Source: Bacteroidetes bacterium 2013_40CM_41_45
GTDB taxonomy: Bacteria; Bacteroidota; Bacteroidia; AKYH767-A; 2013-40CM-41-45
NCBI GenBank assembly: GCA_002215675.1
Contig: NGFH01000002.1
Coordinates: 595,887-659,886, forward strand
Direction: 5' to 3'
Length of the DNA stretch: 64,000 nucleotides
In this document: piece by piece, positions 7,601 through 25,579 of the stretch
Layout: every line of letters begins with the position of its first letter
Position numbering within the stretch: the stretch's first letter is position 1
Made by a program: the position numbers and the translations under genes
Notes under the pieces: generated by a model
Told to the model about the DNA's origin: nothing
The model's database searches: none
The model's input: the letters and a program-made list of their open reading frames with translations, nothing else

Positions 7601-10159
7601 AAGTTCGTCATCATTAAGAGAAAGAAAGGTCTGACTTCCTGCTACGGGAGCATAAGGAATAGGGCTTACCGAGTATGTAACCTGGCCGGGCGGCGTGCTC
7701 AATACTGCCGGTTGTCCGAGACAGATACTGGGAGGTGTTGATATTGCGTTGGCAACAGGCGGAGCAACCAACATAATAGTGACGCTATCGTAAGCAGCGC
7801 ACGTGCCATCGTCACCCATTACAACATAGGTTGTTGTTGCATTGGGAGTAGCTGTTACACTCGGCCCTGTTGTAGAGTTCAAATCAGCCCCAGTCCATGT
7901 ATAGTTGTAACCTGCGTTACTGCTGGATGCCGTAAGCGTTACCGTTGCTGAGGCGGGTAATCCGCAGATAACCATTTGCGATGCGGTAATTGAAATGCTG
8001 GCGGCAGCGGTAAGGGTAACAATCACAGAAGTTCTTGGGCCGGGGCATACTCCGTCAAATTCATCCACATAAAAGGTGTCTGTTACGGTAAGGAAAGGAC
8101 TTGTAAGCGGTGAGCCGTTGCCAATCAGGTTTCCGCCAACCGGTGCGTCATACCATTCGAGTGTTCCGCTGCCGATTGCAGTTGCCGTCAATTGAACGGT
8201 ACCGAAACCACAACGGGTTACATTAGATGCAATAGGCGCAGAAGGAACCGGAACAACAGTAACTGTTACAGAAGAAGTGCTTGTACATCCCGACAGTGGG
8301 TCTGTAGCCGTAACGGTGTATGTAAAATTGCCGTTTGCCTGCGGAGTAAGTGTTGGATTGTAAATGTTAGCATTGTCCAGCCAGGTTGCCGGATTCCATA
8401 CAAACGTAAACGGAGCCGAAGGAGTAAACATCCATGCATCGTTTACTATGGGTTGTCCCGGCCATGGGTCTGTGCTGTTTCTTCCGGGAACGGCATATCC
8501 CAATGTTCCATCTGAATTTTCAATTCCCTCTGTTTCACCTACACCGTCTCCGTCTGTATTGAATGAAGTGATGTGAAGCTCAATCGTATTGCTCGATTCG
8601 TTAAGAATAATCTGTCCGTCAATCGGATTATTGCCGTCAAAGAAATGCCCGATGTTGGTGTAGCAAACTACTAATTTGCGGTTCGGCGCAGAACCGGTAG
8701 TGTAATAACTTATGGTTCCTCCATTGGGAGGATATAAATCTTCCCATGTTAAAGCAATCACATCATTGGGACTAAACGGATTGGGAAGCAACTGCCCGGT
8801 GCAGCATCCGCTGCCTGCATTCGGGTCGAAAGAAATAAATCCGTTGGAAGAAATATAAAACTGGGTTTTGGTTATTCCGAAGAAATCAAACGAGAACCCA
8901 ATAGGCTCTGCTGAGCTAAGCTGGTCATCGCCGAGCGTAACGGTAGTGCCTGTGCAAGGCAGGGGAGCATAAGGAATAGAGGATACGGTGTAGGTAATAT
9001 TTCCCGGAGGAGTAGAGAGTTGTGTGGGCTGTCCTTGGCATACCGTTGACGGAGTAGCCGTGGCATTTACAGGCGGCCAAACCGGAAGCGTTACCGGAAC
9101 CATCACGTCATTGGCGGGGTTACCGTCACCCGGTGTGCTGGTATTTGCCGTAAAAGTGTACACTCCCGGAGCAGACATATTGTAATTATTTGCCACCACC
9201 ACATCCATTGTGGCGCTGGTTGCCAATGTTCCTGTGTTTATGATTACCTGTGCAAACGCCTGCGGATTAGTAGCCGTTGACGCAGAGTTTAGTGTACAAG
9301 GATTAAGAGTGAAGTCAATAACCTGTGAGCCGAGATTCTGAATGCGGATGGATACCGTTTCATTAGCTGTATAGCATGTGTTTGGAAGTGGAGTTGCCAG
9401 CGCAACGGGAGACATATCAATAGGTGCGAGAGACCAGAAATAACTTAATCCCGAAGGAGGAAATATAGAAGTATTAAATGTCATCTGGTCTGTAATGGCG
9501 GCCGATGGAGTAGTGGCTGTCCAATCGCTGGAAGTGGTACGGCTGTTGAAATCTCCTACAGCGGTTCCGCTTAGTCCCACCTGGGGAGTCTGAAATCCTG
9601 AAACAATAGTACCAGGTGAATATGCAAACTCAATAATGTTGGTTCCCTCATAAAGTTTCAGCTGGAAATTAATTTCAGAATTGCTGGTGTTATAGAATCC
9701 CCAGTCTGTCCACTGAACAGTGAATACCTGGCTTCCCGGTGAACCGGATGTTAAATAGCTGAGCTCACATGTAGGCGTATTTCCAAGCAGGTCTTCGCTG
9801 AAGGGATGCATGGTTTCAGGTTCATTTTGAATTGATATACCATTATACCAGCAGCAGTAAGGCAACACATTTCCTAATTTAACATAACCGTTTGCGCCCA
9901 CCGTAACTTCAGTATATATTGTGGAATTGTAGGTGAACGGAAACCCAATTGAAATGGGACCAAAAGTATAATCATCCCAGAAGCCCGCTCCGGAGGCAAG
10001 TACAGTGCCCCCGGTAATGGGTGTATACGTTCCCAATACCTGGCTGAAAGCATAGTTAGCTACCTGCGCATTTGCGCTGAAGGATACCAGCAAACAAAAA
10101 GAAAAAATCGCTACCGGTTTTTTAAAAAAAGAAAATGATGACGCGTAAAAAAGTCTCAT
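4628..10159 (-). CDS. Very large T9SS type A cargo protein with repeated Ig-like/beta-sandwich modules
   Basis: An 1843-residue exported protein. It has a signal peptide (hydrophobic run ending SANAQ) and a C-terminal type A sorting domain (LLVYPNPTSGAFNI ... GIYTVQVKYRERV). Between them are three copies of a large module: a jelly-roll-like part (IPYAPL, GFSFDFFGITKTQFYISSNG, IGHFFDGNNP, DAWMFTP) followed by Ig/PKD-like parts ending CTSTSSVTVTVV. Copies 1 (about 9075-7990) and 2 (about 7765-6690) are very similar; copy 3 (about 6430-5590) is diverged. SprB-like stretches (GGTYSGPGVS) follow. It is probably secreted by the T9SS and attached to, or released from, the cell surface. Ligand unknown. 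Own promoter and terminator suggest a single-gene unit. Confidence 0.85.
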   Translation of the reverse strand: MRLFYASSFSFFKKPVAIFSFCLLVSFSANAQVANYAFSQVLGTYTPITGGTVLASGAGFWDDYTFGPISIGFPFTYNSTIYTEVTVGANGYVKLGNVLPYCCWYNGISIQNEPETMHPFSEDLLGNTPTCELSYLTSGSPGSQVFTVQWTDWGFYNTSNSEINFQLKLYEGTNIIEFAYSPGTIVSGFQTPQVGLSGTAVGDFNSRTTSSDWTATTPSAAITDQMTFNTSIFPPSGLSYFWSLAPIDMSPVALATPLPNTCYTANETVSIRIQNLGSQVIDFTLNPCTLNSASTATNPQAFAQVIINTGTLATSATMDVVVANNYNMSAPGVYTFTANTSTPGDGNPANDVMVPVTLPVWPPVNATATPSTVCQGQPTQLSTPPGNITYTVSSIPYAPLPCTGTTVTLGDDQLSSAEPIGFSFDFFGITKTQFYISSNGFISFDPNAGSGCCTGQLLPNPFSPNDVIALTWEDLYPPNGGTISYYTTGSAPNRKLVVCYTNIGHFFDGNNPIDGQIILNESSNTIELHITSFNTDGDGVGETEGIENSDGTLGYAVPGRNSTDPWPGQPIVNDAWMFTPSAPFTFVWNPATWLDNANIYNPTLTPQANGNFTYTVTATDPLSGCTSTSSVTVTVVPVPSAPIASNVTRCGFGTVQLTATAIGSGTLEWYDAPVGGNLIGNGSPLTSPFLTVTDTFYVDEFDGVCPGPRTSVIVTLTAAASISITASQMVICGLPASATVTLTASSSNAGYNYTWTGADLNSTTGPSVTATPNATTTYVVMGDDGTCAAYDSVTIMLVAPPVANAISTPPSICLGQPAVLSTPPGQVTYSVSPIPYAPVAGSQTFLSLNDDELTSALPIGFTFNFYGIDKTQFYISSNGFISFDPFAGSGCCTGQFLPNPFSPNDLVALAWEDFYPPGGGTIGYFTTGSAPYRRLVVDYTNIGHFFNGNNPLTGQIILNETYNTVEVHITSFSTDGDLFAGETQGIENATGTAGTAVPGRNSTDPWPGQPIANDAWIFTPIVPYTFIWTPNTWLSTDTVYNPILTPLAIGNYTYTVTVTDVTSGCTSTSSVTVTVVNVPLAPTASNLTRCGTGTVQLTATAAGPGTLQWFDVPTGGTPFATGSPVTSPIISFTDTFYVEEFDGNCPGPRISVIVTVTPADTIIATPTSNPMCAGQPITITIASIDPGYTYAWTPTIGISNPTEDTVTASPPFTTLYTVNAIDGAGCQTSTSFTLIVNPSPVITSTTATPASVCLGSSSQLMANVVVPPDSYIVASIPYAPLACPPTNAVLFPTTGFYPAGDEGLSAPLPLGFNFTFFGNVYSSVSISSNGHLQFTPDPNATYGPFNPLPYSFGFDPDNIIAFPWTDLDQSVGGTITYGIIGTSPNQKFVVCFTNVLFYVNNITGDGNYTSQVILNEADNSIEVHITQINTTVFNERALGIENANGTVAFIPPNRNTGTWLVTTPEAWKFAPAVPYIFTWTPSVSLDNDTIVNPVATPAATTTYTINVYDPYYNCASTATVTVNVNPPPVVNLSPLTNICIDGSPFALSGGTPAGGIYSGPGVSNNIFYPVVAGVGTHTIVYTYTDNLGCAGSDSTTITVNDLPLVTLPTFQTVCSNATIVNLTTGLPAGGSYSGPGVSAGVFNPSSVGAGIYGITYTYTDGNGCINSALRNIIVNSAPVANAGPDVNGNTTLVGSATGGTPPYTYIWSPCLDLLNCGSPTPFANPQVNTFYVLYVVDANGCYSTDTVLVSSTIGIAKVPVAGANLLVYPNPTSGAFNILFLDPGTQANVTIVDYIGQTVFNSGAFTTSSVPYEINLEDQPDGIYTVQVKYRERVFTSRLVLNK

Positions 10160-16179: not shown

Positions 16180-16220
16180 CCCTTCTTTTTTTTATTTCTT
16201 TTAATCTTTATGTTAGCTGC
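16180..16220 (-). repeat. attC-like half element after the unknown gene (left arm only)
   Basis: Read on the minus strand this stretch is GCAGCTAAC followed by an A-rich arm (ATAAAGATTAAAAGAAAT, an A run, AGAAGGG). This is nearly the left arm of the palindromic elements at 22879 and 23609. The matching right arm (CCCTTCTTCGTTA) is not seen, so the element looks truncated. It begins 15 bases after the stop codon of the gene at 16235-16981. Confidence 0.65.
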
Positions 16221-16234
16221 AGTTCTACCGTCAT

Positions 16235-16981
16235 TCAAGCGTGATAATAAGTTATAAAGCACTTTGCTGGTTGGTACCAAATATACAAACCCTCTCTGTT
16301 TTCTGGCTCACCAAAATTAAGTAATTCACCTTTGAAATTATTCAGATACTCTTGGTATTCTTTTAGAGAGATATTAATTCCTTTTTGTTTCAATTCAGAA
16401 ATTCCAAAATCAAAAAGCATTTGTTTAGATTTCCCGAAACTATTATCAAATTCTGCTTTTGATTCAATGGTAGGTATGCTGTAATTAATCGCAGTAGAGA
16501 ATGTCAACCAAAGACCTCTTGCGGTTGTGTCAGGTTCAAACAAATGATTTGTGTCAATTACGAAATAAGGATTTTGAAATTCGGATTTCCAAAGCGTATC
16601 GTTATTTACAACCCATGAAGATTTAACGGTAACATCTTTTGAAACTAAATAAACTCTGTTTCTGATTGTGTCTTGCTTATTATCACCGTCAAGATTTCCG
16701 ACAACAATCATTGTAGTATCAAGTACTTTTCCGTTGAACTGTTTCATTACTGCAATTAGTCGGCTGATAAATTTTGCTTTGAATGATTCCGTTCCGCTCG
16801 TAAGCTCTTTTTCGTATTGGCTAATCAATTCTTTATCGGCTGATAGCGAAGAAGCACGAAAAGTATTGGTTGAATCTGTGTCACTCTTACTTTGTCCTGA
16901 AACATCTTTGCTCGTTGTGTCCGATGAATATCTCGTCAAAAAGATACAAAATGCGATTATGAAAAACCTAAACACTGTCAT
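16235..16981 (-). CDS. Hypothetical exported protein, cassette-like
   Basis: I do not recognise this 248-residue protein. It starts with a hydrophobic run (MTVFRFFIIAFCIFLTRYSS), a probable signal peptide or anchor, then a Ser/Thr/Asp-rich linker. The body contains VVGNLDGDNKQDTI, similar to the Ca-binding loops of FG-GAP/VCBS-like or dockerin-like repeats. No catalytic motif is seen. Base composition is visibly more AT-rich than neighbouring housekeeping genes. The gene is bounded by complementary ends: GTTAGCAGC (minus strand, 17022-17014) before it and GCAGCTAAC after it (16220-16212), with 16 of 20 positions matching over the longer ends. This is the pattern of a mobile gene cassette. Confidence 0.6.
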   Translation of the reverse strand: MTVFRFFIIAFCIFLTRYSSDTTSKDVSGQSKSDTDSTNTFRASSLSADKELISQYEKELTSGTESFKAKFISRLIAVMKQFNGKVLDTTMIVVGNLDGDNKQDTIRNRVYLVSKDVTVKSSWVVNNDTLWKSEFQNPYFVIDTNHLFEPDTTARGLWLTFSTAINYSIPTIESKAEFDNSFGKSKQMLFDFGISELKQKGINISLKEYQEYLNNFKGELLNFGEPENREGLYIWYQPAKCFITYYHA

Positions 16982-17002
16982 TTGCTATGCTGTTTAATTG
17001 GA

Positions 17003-17022
17003 GCGCTAGAATTGCTGCTAAC
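17003..17022 (-). repeat. Start boundary of the minus-strand cassette-like unit
   Basis: On the minus strand the unit opens with GTTAGCAGCAATTCTAGCGC. Its reverse complement matches the end of the same unit (16231-16212 read on the minus strand) at 16 of 20 positions. This is what is expected if both are halves of one recombination site split by insertion. Confidence 0.55.
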
Positions 17023-21634: not shown

Positions 21635-21756
21635 ATTTTCTAAAAGCCGCCATCGAGTTGCGACAATCCGCAACATAGTTGTGGGTAATTTTTATATTTG
21701 TTTGAAAATGGATAATTCCTAATATTGGGAGTTGAGGATAATAGATGTTATCCGCA

Positions 21757-21771
21757 ACTGCTTTCCGCTCC
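21757..21771 (+). repeat. Start boundary of cassette-like unit 1
   Basis: GTTATCCGCAACTGC. Its reverse complement occurs, with one extra base, at the end of the same unit (GCAGTATGCGGATAAC, 22872-22887). Under the integron model the crossover would be between G21757 and TTATCC. Confidence 0.6.
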
Positions 21772-21808
21772 GAACAAACGGCAGTGCTAATTTGAAATTG
21801 ATTGCAAG

Positions 21809-22843
21809 ATGATTGAAAAAGTAACAAATAATAAATTCAATACTGAGAAACTAAATCTCAATCCACCTGATAAAGTCAAGGAGAAACTTGACTATTACAG
21901 AACTCTTTTTAACAAAACACACGATTTACCATCTGAACAGTTTGAAGAACTCACGAATAGCATTAAAACATTTTTCAACCTGAAATCAGTTGGTTTTACC
22001 GACAATCCACCAACAAGATTAATTCGCATTTCAAACAACAATCGTATTCTGGAGGGTAAAGAACTAAGTTACTTAACTGACATTTCTCAAATACTTGCTC
22101 CACCTATCAAGTACTGCAATTTTGGAAGATGCAATGTTCCGGGACAGCAAGTGCTTTATTGTTCAACAACAGAAGCGGGAGCATATTGGGAAACACGACC
22201 GAAAAACGGAGATGTTATTACTCTCTCTCAATTCGAATTGAAAGAAGGTGCAAAAGTGAATTGCAATGTTGTTGACCATCAAAATAAGGTGAACCAAAAC
22301 GGAACGCACCCGCTGCAAATTGTCGGTGCAATGCTTTCGGAATTTTTAATTGATGCTTTTAGTTTAGAGGTTTCAAGAGACCGTCCAAAAGATTATTTAT
22401 TTAGTTCGTTACTGGCTTCTGAACAATTATTTTATCGTGTTGCTACCGACAACAATATCCAAGCAATGATTTATCCAAGCGTTCAGAAAAAGAAATTCGG
22501 GACAAATTTTGCAATTAAAAACGAGTTGATTTTTGAAAAATATAATCTTATTGGAGTTGAGACAAGGTTTATATTAGATGAGTTTGAGAATATCAACCCT
22601 CAAACAGAGGAGTTAATTACCGATAATTTAATTAGCTCTTTTGCTACAGAAACATTTGATTTTGTCAATGGTAAAATACTTTACAATGAGGACGCTAAGC
22701 ACCTCTTTAAACTTTCAAGGAGACTTCAGACAGGCGCAGGAAAACAATTCAGGTATGATAATCCTGGAAATGTAAAAAATTTGACTTTTAATGTATCTGC
22801 AAATAGAGCAGCACAATGGCCAGAATCATTCAAATCAAATTAA
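21809..22843 (+). CDS. RES-domain protein
   Basis: A 344-residue protein whose middle resembles a RES domain: LIRISNNN, then FGRCNVPGQQVLYCSTTEAGAYWET, matching the R-x-N-x-PG-x-x-LY-x-x-x-x-x-x-A-x-x-E pattern with the conserved Arg, Tyr and Glu. Known RES proteins with an Xre-like partner are toxins that degrade NAD+. Here no Xre/MbcA-type antitoxin gene is adjacent, and the protein is longer than the ~150-residue toxins, so a toxin role is only a possibility. The gene is AT-rich and is the sole gene of cassette-like unit 1, with complementary ends at 21757 and 22887. Confidence 0.68.
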   Translation: MIEKVTNNKFNTEKLNLNPPDKVKEKLDYYRTLFNKTHDLPSEQFEELTNSIKTFFNLKSVGFTDNPPTRLIRISNNNRILEGKELSYLTDISQILAPPIKYCNFGRCNVPGQQVLYCSTTEAGAYWETRPKNGDVITLSQFELKEGAKVNCNVVDHQNKVNQNGTHPLQIVGAMLSEFLIDAFSLEVSRDRPKDYLFSSLLASEQLFYRVATDNNIQAMIYPSVQKKKFGTNFAIKNELIFEKYNLIGVETRFILDEFENINPQTEELITDNLISSFATETFDFVNGKILYNEDAKHLFKLSRRLQTGAGKQFRYDNPGNVKNLTFNVSANRAAQWPESFKSN

Positions 22844-22870
22844 TTAGATATAGAACAAGTAACTCAGAGT

Positions 22871-23030
22871 AGCAGTATGCGGATAACATTAAGATTAAAG
22901 AAATAAAAAAAAGAAGGGCTTTGATAGGTAAACAAAGAGTTGAGCTTCTAATGAACAGTGTAGGTAAACGAACAGTTGTGCTTCTAAACCCTTCTTTTTT
23001 TTACTTCTTTAATCCCTTCTTCGTTATGCG
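22871..23030 (+). repeat. attC-like long palindromic element A
   Basis: Outer arms GCGGATAAC (22879-22887) and GTTATGCG (23023-23030) enclose an inner stem of 26 bp. 22893-22918 pairs with 22989-23014 at 25 of 26 positions, the odd one being a G-U pair. The 70-base loop holds two direct copies of a 25-base word (22927-22951 and 22963-22987, 22 of 25 identical). Size and plan match an integron attC (R''-stem-loop-stem-R'). The stem could also stop transcription. Confidence 0.75.
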
Positions 23031-23137
23031 TCATGCTTGGGGACACTGCTAACTTTGAACTAACTGTAAGAAACTGACGAACTAAAAACAAACGGGAATG
23101 CTGAAAACCGATTAGAGTAAGCACAACTAAATTTTAT

Positions 23138-23563
23138 ATGAACATACAAGAACAAATCAAAAAATATATTACTAACCAACCTGAACCAAAACGCAGCGAC
23201 ATGCAAGCGTTGCACCGCATCATTCTGCAAGTAATGCCAGCATGTAAATTATGGTTCTTGGATGGTAAAAACAGTGAAAATAAAACCGTTTCTAATCCTA
23301 ATATAGGATATGGATTTCACACCATAAAATATGCTGATGGAAAAATCAGAGAGTTTTATCAAATTGGTATCAGTGCAAACACAACCGGAATCTCTGTCTA
23401 TATCCTTGGTATTAAAGATAAGAAATACTTAGCCCGGACATATGGAAAAAAACTCGGCAAGGCGAGTGTGAGCGGATATTGCATTAAGTTCAAAACGCTG
23501 AAAGGTATAAACATTGATATACTTGAAGCGGCAATACGATATGGGGTTGAGGCTACGAACTAA
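23138..23563 (+). CDS. DUF1801 (YdhG-like) domain protein
   Basis: A 141-residue soluble protein matching DUF1801. It opens with MNIQEQIKKYITNQPEPKRSDM and the helical LHRIILQVMPACKLWF, then GYGFHTIKYADGKIREF, ISVYILG and a C-terminal ILEAAIRYG. The family has a small alpha/beta fold related to Bacillus YdhG/YdeI; its function is not established. It is the only gene of cassette-like unit 2, between elements A and B, in the same orientation as the genes before and after it. Confidence 0.75.
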   Translation: MNIQEQIKKYITNQPEPKRSDMQALHRIILQVMPACKLWFLDGKNSENKTVSNPNIGYGFHTIKYADGKIREFYQIGISANTTGISVYILGIKDKKYLARTYGKKLGKASVSGYCIKFKTLKGINIDILEAAIRYGVEATN

Positions 23564-23600
23564 CTACGAACTTCAAACAGTTGTGCCTTGAACGAGCAGT

Positions 23601-23734
23601 AGCACGAACGCATAACATAAGATTAAAGAATTTTTTTTAAAAAGGGTTTTGTTCGGTTAACAAACAGTAGTGGTTTCTATTTACATTTGTGGTTAATGAA
23701 AGTGAGTGCAAGTAATCCCTTCTTCGTTGTGTGC
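23601..23734 (+). repeat. attC-like palindromic element B
   Basis: Opens with CGCATAAC (23609-23616), the exact complement of GTTATGCG that starts unit 2 at 23023. It continues ATAAGATTAAAGAA and GGGTTTTG as in element A. The loop carries one copy (23655-23679) of the 25-base word found twice in element A. It closes with AATCCCTTCTTC then GTTGTGTGC (23726-23734). The stem is less regular than in A. Confidence 0.65.
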
Positions 23735-23784
23735 AATGCTAACCGCTCCGATTAAACTTTACACCTAAACGATATGGACGAGCA

Positions 23785-25500
23785 ATGAAAATAGTAACAT
23801 TATTTCTTCTGACATTTTTGTTCTGCACTGCAAATGCTCAAACGTGGCAATGGGTAAAAAACCCGCGAGGTATCGGCTATGAAAGCGGAGAAGGAATTGT
23901 AACAGACAAATTCGGAAACTCTTATGTTCGCGGACATTTTGATTATGATTCTATTCAATTTGGTAATAACATAACGCTTTATAATCCCAATGCTTGGTTG
24001 TATCCACAAGCTTTCTTTCTTGCGAAGTATGATGCTGCAGGAAACATAGTATGGGCAAATAAAATTGATGGTCACATAGATGCTGCTTATCACCCTAATG
24101 GAATCTGTATAGATAATTATCAAAATATTTATATAGTTAGTGACTTTGATAGCACTTTAACTATTAACACCACCATTCTTACTACAACTTCCTATAATGA
24201 TTCTTGTTTCGATAATTTGACATGGACTTGGTATCCCTGTATAAAATATTACAATGCAACTTTTATTGCAAAGTATAATTCCAATGGCGGTTTAATTTGG
24301 GCAAAAAAAATCTGCGAAACCAAAACAGGCAAAACATTCTTCTATTCAAAATCTATTACAGCAGATACTTCCGGTAACTGTTATATAACGGGGTCATTCG
24401 CTGATACACTTTATTTTAATAATGGCTCTTCAATAATTTCTAATAATCAAAACTTAAAGAATATTTTTATTGCAAAAACTGATAGCAGCGGAAACACCAT
24501 ATGGGCAAAAAAAGCAAGTGGGAATAGTGCACACGGAAATTATTCAACTGATATCAAAATGAATGATTCAGCTAATGTTTTCATAATTGGAAGTTATTCG
24601 GATACAGCAATATTCGATTCCTATGTCTTGAATGGAACAGGAATGTTTGTTGCCAAATATGACACTACCGGAAACTGCATTTGGGCAAAAAAGATGGGTA
24701 ACGTAGGTGAACCCCATAAAATTGATATTGATAAATTTGATAATTATTTTATTACAGGAAAGTTTAGAGCCCAGGCAGATTTTGATACTATCTCATTAAC
24801 CGCTTCAGGTACAGAAGATATGTTTATTACAAAATATGCTCCGTCCGGAAATGCTCTTTGGGCTAAACAGGCCGGTGGCAACCATGTTAATGATTATAAT
24901 GAAGGTAACGGAGTAGCTGTTGATAGTTTGGGTAATTGTTATATCACAGGGGACGTACGCGATACCGTTCACTTTGATTCTTTAACTCTTATTTGCAACA
25001 ATATTGATATTTTCGTTGCAAAATATAATGCTTCAGGGAATCTTATTTGGGTTAAAAGAGCAGGAAACGTGGGCACTCGTATTGACCTGGGAAACAGCAT
25101 TGCTGTAGATGATTCCGGCTCTGTATATATTACAGGAGGGTTTGAAACGAACGCTCTTTTTGACTCTATTGCTCTTACGAGCGGAGGTGGTTGGGATGCG
25201 TTTATTGCCAAACTTTCTGATAACACTGTTGGAATAACAGAATTGGTACGAACAAAAAATTCTTCAATTGTTTTTCCCAATCCTTTTTCTCAGCATGCGA
25301 CCTTTTACTCCACCTATGTTTTTTATAATGCAACACTAACTATTGAAAATATTCTCGGGCAACCCATTAAACAAATAAAAAATATTTCAGGGCAGACAAT
25401 AATATTACAACGTGACAACTTGTCCAGTGGACTTTATTTCGTTCGACTAACAGAAGACAATAACGTAGTAGTAACAAACAAAATAATAATTACGGACTGA
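23785..25500 (+). CDS. T9SS type A cargo with beta-propeller (SBBP-type) repeats
   Basis: A 571-residue exported protein: signal peptide ending TANAQ, then about eight SBBP-type repeats of roughly 50-60 residues. These have the alternating pattern VDSLGNCYITGD, FDSLTL, IFVAKYNASGNLIWVKRAG, typical of a beta-propeller. The type A sorting domain contains SIVFPNPFSQHATF and GLYFVRLTEDN. It is secreted through the T9SS; ligand unknown. It is the third forward gene in the cassette-like region, lying between elements B and C, and its composition is AT-rich like units 1 and 2. Confidence 0.82.
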   Translation: MKIVTLFLLTFLFCTANAQTWQWVKNPRGIGYESGEGIVTDKFGNSYVRGHFDYDSIQFGNNITLYNPNAWLYPQAFFLAKYDAAGNIVWANKIDGHIDAAYHPNGICIDNYQNIYIVSDFDSTLTINTTILTTTSYNDSCFDNLTWTWYPCIKYYNATFIAKYNSNGGLIWAKKICETKTGKTFFYSKSITADTSGNCYITGSFADTLYFNNGSSIISNNQNLKNIFIAKTDSSGNTIWAKKASGNSAHGNYSTDIKMNDSANVFIIGSYSDTAIFDSYVLNGTGMFVAKYDTTGNCIWAKKMGNVGEPHKIDIDKFDNYFITGKFRAQADFDTISLTASGTEDMFITKYAPSGNALWAKQAGGNHVNDYNEGNGVAVDSLGNCYITGDVRDTVHFDSLTLICNNIDIFVAKYNASGNLIWVKRAGNVGTRIDLGNSIAVDDSGSVYITGGFETNALFDSIALTSGGGWDAFIAKLSDNTVGITELVRTKNSSIVFPNPFSQHATFYSTYVFYNATLTIENILGQPIKQIKNISGQTIILQRDNLSSGLYFVRLTEDNNVVVTNKIIITD

Positions 25501-25522
25501 CTACGAAGGATGAGAAGCACAT

Positions 25523-25556
25523 GCCCATAACAAAGGATTAAAAGAAATCTGTTACG
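25523..25556 (+). repeat. Short degenerate attC-like element C
   Basis: GCCCATAAC, then AAAGGATTAAAAGAAATCT and GTTACG. It shares the TAAC-GATTAAA-GAA core of elements A and B but lacks the long stem and loop. The arms are only weakly complementary to the start of unit 3. It may be a decayed or terminal site. Confidence 0.45.
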
Positions 25557-25579
25557 TCTCCTATATCCCAACTCCCTAC

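Follow-up and report, generated by a model that had tools for sequence, protein, structure and literature searches.

It is very probable that the window (the whole stretch of 64,000 nt of DNA that was analysed) holds an array of cassettes that lacks an integrase but is equipped with an attI and a probable promoter, the CALIN-like relic of an integron-like system of the Bacteroidota. Judged from sequence alone, this system is an integron variant that is widespread in the phylum and, as far as the open-access literature shows, undescribed; recombination has not been demonstrated.

The cassette array

Three single-gene cassettes on the forward strand occupy positions 21748-25551, with attC-like sites behind two of them and a decayed site behind the third. 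The units lie where a preliminary description of this DNA had placed them, and the complementarity that it had claimed between the ends of the first two is real. Unit 1 is opened by GTTATCCGCA at 21747 and closed by TGCGGATAAC at 22887, which is its exact reverse complement over 10 bases, and unit 2 is opened by GTTATGCGT at 23023 and closed by ACGCATAAC at 23616, with a reverse-complement match of 9 bases; the chance that a GTT/AAC pair drawn at random from the window matches as well is 0.0002 and 0.0007, respectively. From crossover to crossover, cassette 1 spans 21748-23023 and cassette 2 spans 23024-23726. The start of cassette 3 (23727-25551, right end uncertain), GTTGTGTGCAATGCT, fits the consensus of cassette starts, and its two ends (23726 and 25531) match only weakly (P 0.08), as had also been described.

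The same description had reported a related, attC-like element after each gene and had proposed to fold the first two as single strands. This holds for the first two genes, the second element being weak-stemmed; what follows the third is merely a remnant (25524-25557, forward strand), in which CCCATAAC, GGATTAAAAG and GTTACG stand in sequence. Site 1 (22880-23030, forward strand; hairpin score 23.8 in the attC scan) is laid out with R" at 22880-22887, L" from 22893, L' up to 23014 and R' from 23023. Its element (22888-23022) forms a long hairpin of 135 nt with 32-nt arms that are 91% complementary, and the stem is free of bulges and contains one A.C mismatch, which is the pattern of the FEG sites discussed below. 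The top strand of this site folds slightly better than the bottom strand (-28.3 versus -24.8). Site 2 (23609-23733, forward strand) has AAGATTAAAG and TAATCCCTTCTTCGTT in common with site 1; both ends of its element (23617-23725) have been kept, and its partly decayed stem is weak when folded. A scan of the window against Rfam gave no match. On structure, the array meets the CALIN criterion of at least two attC sites with no integrase nearby, with the reservation that the second site is decayed.

Just inside the start of several cassettes in this genome there is a shared leader, CCGCTCCGAnnAAAC, sometimes followed by GGCAGTG (window positions 21760-21800, 23737-23757 and 16980-17010; L022 10345-10385; L016). 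This leader goes beyond what attC explains.

The attI-like block and the missing integrase

An attI-like block, recognised by homology, lies on the forward strand at 21657-21749, with its crossover G|TT at 21747/21748. Embedded in it is a promoter motif of the Bacteroidota type, composed of TTG at 21679 and TATATTTG at 21693-21700, the resemblance to a promoter having been judged by eye. The sole second copy of the block in the genome (G000:C6:390243-390344; 95% over 102 nt) is found directly behind the 3' end (~55 codons) of a tyrosine recombinase gene whose product ends in ...SPLDKLAL, and in a relative (G090) a 77% match is found just downstream of an intact integrase of 393 aa with a similar C-terminal ending. 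On these two matches and the promoter motif, we credit the window array, which has no integrase, with an attI and a probable promoter; expression from this promoter is inferred.

No intact integrase of the FEG type was found in this genome at E 1e-60, only the C-terminal fragment on C6, and a search of the genome with TIGR02249, the NCBIfam integron-integrase model, returned mainly XerC/XerD and other recombinases in addition to that fragment. The remnant on C6 (L022 9640-10238) is situated just behind a tRNA-Arg gene (9640-9714), and a second tRNA-like end sequence lies between the two, as if an integrative element had truncated the remnant. Two genomes of the same family, G006 and G003 (L026 and L029), contain attI-like blocks on pieces that carry no integrase, and behind the block of G006 come a cassette-like start and a DnaJ-like gene.

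Further copies in the genome and spread of the cargo

About ten more copies of the element are present in the genome outside the window array, as counted by a census of attC sites that is pattern-based and incomplete. The right-half pattern of the element occurs at two further places and the left-half pattern at nine, on C1, C2, C6 and C11, with two of these nine belonging to right-half sites. Within the window, one such match on the minus strand (16196-16215) closes a solo cassette at 16190-17022, also on the minus strand, which starts with GTTAGCAGCA at 17022 and ends with CTGCAGCTAAC at 16212, followed by an L" half-site, and whose gene (16981-16235) encodes 248 aa. The solo cassettes of G000 (L013, L018 and L019) have an L" half at their end and then non-matching DNA, as if they had been inserted at secondary sites or worn down.

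The genes of the window array, all on the forward strand, encode a RES-domain protein of 344 aa (21809-22843; PF08808 at 27.2 bits against a cut-off of 23.2), a DUF1801-like protein of 141 aa (23138-23563; PF08818 at E 3e-4, under the curated cut-off) and a secreted beta-propeller protein of 571 aa with a type IX sorting domain (23785-25500; PF06739 and PF18962). As far as can be told from homologues, this cargo spreads sporadically. The RES gene is present in 7 of 395 Bacteroidia genomes and the DUF1801 gene in 51, and the conserved linkage of the three genes that would have spoken against the preliminary description is thereby refuted. Behind the nearest RES homologue from outside this genome (71%, in G070, another family) lies an attC, and a 75% homologue of the DUF1801 protein, again in another family (G081), sits exactly between two attC sites. 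No such attC sites were found at the other RES and DUF1801 homologues examined or at the control gene mltG, and the DUF1801 homologues lie mostly outside cassettes.

Cassette arrays beside a distinct type of integrase

Relatives of the G090 integrase were found, at E 1e-60, in 165 of the 395 Bacteroidia genomes sampled. We refer to this type as FEG integrases, after their LFEGQ motif; the 30 proteins examined share an FEG motif where the insert of IntI would be. The IntI-specific (I2) domain of ~36 residues is absent from all 30 aligned FEG integrases and present in all 18 classical IntI from the phylum. The FEG integrase aligns to VchIntIA (2A3V) at 10-208 and 247-320 only, leaving 209-246 unmatched, and the AlphaFold model of an Algibacter FEG protein (pLDDT 81), whose best match among solved structures is 2A3V, has no helix at the I2 position. 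Within the limits of alignment and prediction, the FEG integrase lacks the part that has long been thought to define and enable integron integrases.

Against TIGR02249, the G090 protein scores 195.6 bits, under the curated cut-off of 265. In a tree of 41 rows, the FEG proteins cluster together next to IntI and at a distance from Xer (IntI 100/99), and in a tree of 92 rows they lie outside IntI again, with the deeper order unresolved; on these trees, the FEG integrases fall outside the IntI clade. That they are the sister group of IntI was supported in the small tree and unresolved in the wider one, and is not claimed. Related recombinases in Alphaproteobacteria and others (L132-L167) are also without the IntI insert, and no attC arrays were seen near them.

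The surroundings of the integrase genes were examined with the attC scan, a hairpin-plus-ends search with AAC/GTT cores that in shuffled DNA yields 0-1 sites and no chains. A chain search on end complementarity alone was rejected as too loose, giving long chance chains even in shuffled DNA. At 52 FEG integrases, the scan detected 106 attC-like sites downstream (293 kb) against 4 upstream (273 kb), a bias with a binomial P of 2e-25 that is carried by 27 loci versus 1. The 20 classical IntI of the phylum have 91 sites upstream and 18 downstream, 15 of the latter from three loci; a small number of loci with classical IntI (L192, L207 and L208) have the array downstream.

In 17 FEG loci, the first cassette begins 41-247 nt past the integrase stop. 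The median length of 61 cassettes is 737 nt, the largest ORF being forward in 56 and reverse in 3, and the attC chains reach up to 10 sites. Among the carriers are Algibacter, Winogradskyella, Flavobacterium, Seonamhaeicola, Rufibacter and Cyclobacterium, and the cargo comprises type II and IIG restriction enzymes, a methyltransferase, a TIR effector, cytochrome b561 and unknowns. In these relatives, the feature of a functional platform that consists of a tyrosine recombinase gene adjoining a site of cassette accumulation is therefore met, and the linkage of the arrays to an integrase and the type of that integrase are established by genome comparison. Many other FEG integrases are located on contig ends with no array visible; many stop ~100-150 nt from the contig end on the array side, as would be expected if repeated attC sites break assemblies.

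Structure and strand asymmetry of the attC sites

The consensus of 88 sites has AAC/GTT cores, paired R and L boxes and a variable loop. A bulge in the L" arm, within the outer 15 nt of the stem, was seen in 7 of 66 FEG sites as opposed to 55 of 56 classical sites (P 1e-25), and an A(L").C(L') mismatch in 65 of 66 as opposed to 7 of 56 (P 3e-25). These contrasts are not made by the filter, because the same scan chose the sites in both sets; the P values are optimistic, because sites from one locus are not independent. In the sites thus detected, the extrahelical bases that are read by the IntI-specific domain are absent from FEG attC. The A.C mismatch becomes a G.T wobble on the bottom strand, which is the better fold in 57 of 66 FEG sites, and it is because of this fold bias that use of the bottom strand is inferred. 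Architecture, attI homology, cassette boundaries, and the folds and strand asymmetry of attC are established, with nothing beyond the sequences to support them.

The system might be as described and its sites nevertheless be double-stranded, as dif-like modules, with the hairpin a mere by-product of the inverted-repeat layout. We regard this as unlikely, without being able to set it aside, since the FEG integrase does lack the domain that reads folded attC, and since XerCD-type enzymes act on double-stranded sites. The greater stability of the bottom strand and the single direction of the A.C mismatches would, however, be needless in sites of that kind, and the stems of ~20 bp with long and variable loops also speak against them.

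Discussion

If, as we suppose, the sites are instead recombined in folded form, the FEG integrase of intact relatives, whose gene lies immediately upstream and is read the same way, would take up circular cassettes at attI and would remove or rearrange them at attC. It would work on attC folded as a single strand, most likely the bottom one, with the cut falling between the G and the TT of the R' box; the first bases of each cassette would complete the left half of its own attC, and the cassette genes would probably be read from the promoter inside attI. In the absence of both I2 and extrahelical bases, strand choice and the exchange of one strand might depend on the A.C positions, which are one-sided, or on the additional N-terminal region of the enzyme. 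The recombination reaction itself and the strand on which it acts are inferred, as is trans-mobilisation or decay in the genome studied here, and recombination of folded attC by FEG enzymes can be no more than inferred because a domain that has been called necessary for IntI activity is missing. Unless an outside integrase moves the cassettes, what this genome retains is probably a relic. No empty site was found; relatives in the family share ~55% identity in the mltG protein of the flank, and rpmB was not seen beside mltG. On balance, we lean towards the view that the Bacteroidia possess a distinct class of integron, in which folded sites are shuffled without I2 or extrahelical bases and the strand is chosen via A.C/G.T positions, whether as an ancestral state or independently.

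That the array is instead what remains of a classical IntI integron, its integrase and attC features having decayed, is very improbable. While the overall layout is alike, the NCBIfam integron-integrase model is matched at 196 bits and classical IntI are frequent in other parts of the phylum, FEG integrases that are intact and have intact arrays possess no IntI domain and lie outside the IntI clade, their arrays are on the opposite side of the integrase gene, their attC sites are without one-sided bulges, and, among the genomes listed as having an IntI above the cut-off, only one belongs to this class. A MITE-like family with ~15-bp inverted ends, moved by a transposase with ordinary genes in between, which the preliminary description had kept as its alternative, is scarcely credible: scattered half-copies without the full hairpin do occur in the genome, but the complementarity is between the two ends of a unit that carries a gene, and it varies from unit to unit rather than from element to element, the arrays start ~100 nt behind one type of integrase, and no target-site duplications were noticed, albeit without a systematic search.

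The integron-like cassette system of the Bacteroidota, without a local integrase, that the same description had put first is supported by the attI block and by the integrase-linked arrays in relatives. The additional copies that it had proposed to seek are numerous both in the genome and in relatives, and the boundaries of cassettes in integrase-linked loci do fall at GTT/AAC sites, where it had expected breakpoints. Absent from it were the attI block at 21657-21749, the minus-strand cassette at 17022-16212, the ten or so further copies and the type of integrase; the search for an IntI-type integrase that it had recommended would miss the cognate enzyme, because the IntI-specific domain is lacking.

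The system resembles classical integrons in its tyrosine integrase, its attI with what is probably a promoter, its single-gene, co-oriented cassettes, the R"/L"/L'/R' layout and AAC/GTT cores of its attC sites, and the manner in which cassette ends complete each other's site. It differs from them in that the integrase has no I2 domain and has an extra N-terminal region of ~100 aa, in that the integrase gene reads towards the array, and in that attC has A.C mismatches and no extrahelical bases. Archaeal XerA and bacterial XerC/XerD, which are enzymes of the chromosome-dimer type, possess a catalytic fold without the I2 insert as in FEG. To our knowledge, they are not tied to cassette arrays; unlike them, the FEG proteins have, as IntI does, a KSPLD-type tail at their end, and are grouped with IntI, away from Xer.

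Integration of CTXphi by XerCD (PMC4792948) likewise involves a folded single-stranded site without extrahelical bases and an enzyme without I2, but it concerns a phage genome and host enzymes, with no cassettes, arrays or attI. The insertion is described as incompletely conserved in an 'integron-like' subgroup by a survey of tyrosine recombinases (PMC8138268), which, as far as its text was accessible, does not link the insertion-less members to attC arrays or to the present system. No earlier description of the system was found in the open-access literature, preprints being out of scope and few subscription papers being covered.

The additional domain has been held to be indispensable to classical integrons (Messier and Roy 2001, cited in PMC9668308 and PMC8352920), and the joint origin of the I2 domain and the extrahelical bases has been termed a chicken-and-egg paradox (Escudero et al., PMC4792948). 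A natural and widespread system that is without both, and whose arrays persist, would amount to a built-in test of that paradox. Integron-finding tools require the additional domain of IntI, and few integrons were reported in Bacteroidetes with IntegronFinder 2 (PMC9024848). Tools with this requirement would overlook the present system, which may explain why so few have been reported. With cargo such as restriction enzymes, a TIR effector and further genes linked to defence, the arrays would therefore represent an unread pool of gene exchange in a major phylum. If true, an integron class of the Bacteroidia bears on the origin of integrons from Xer-like recombinases.
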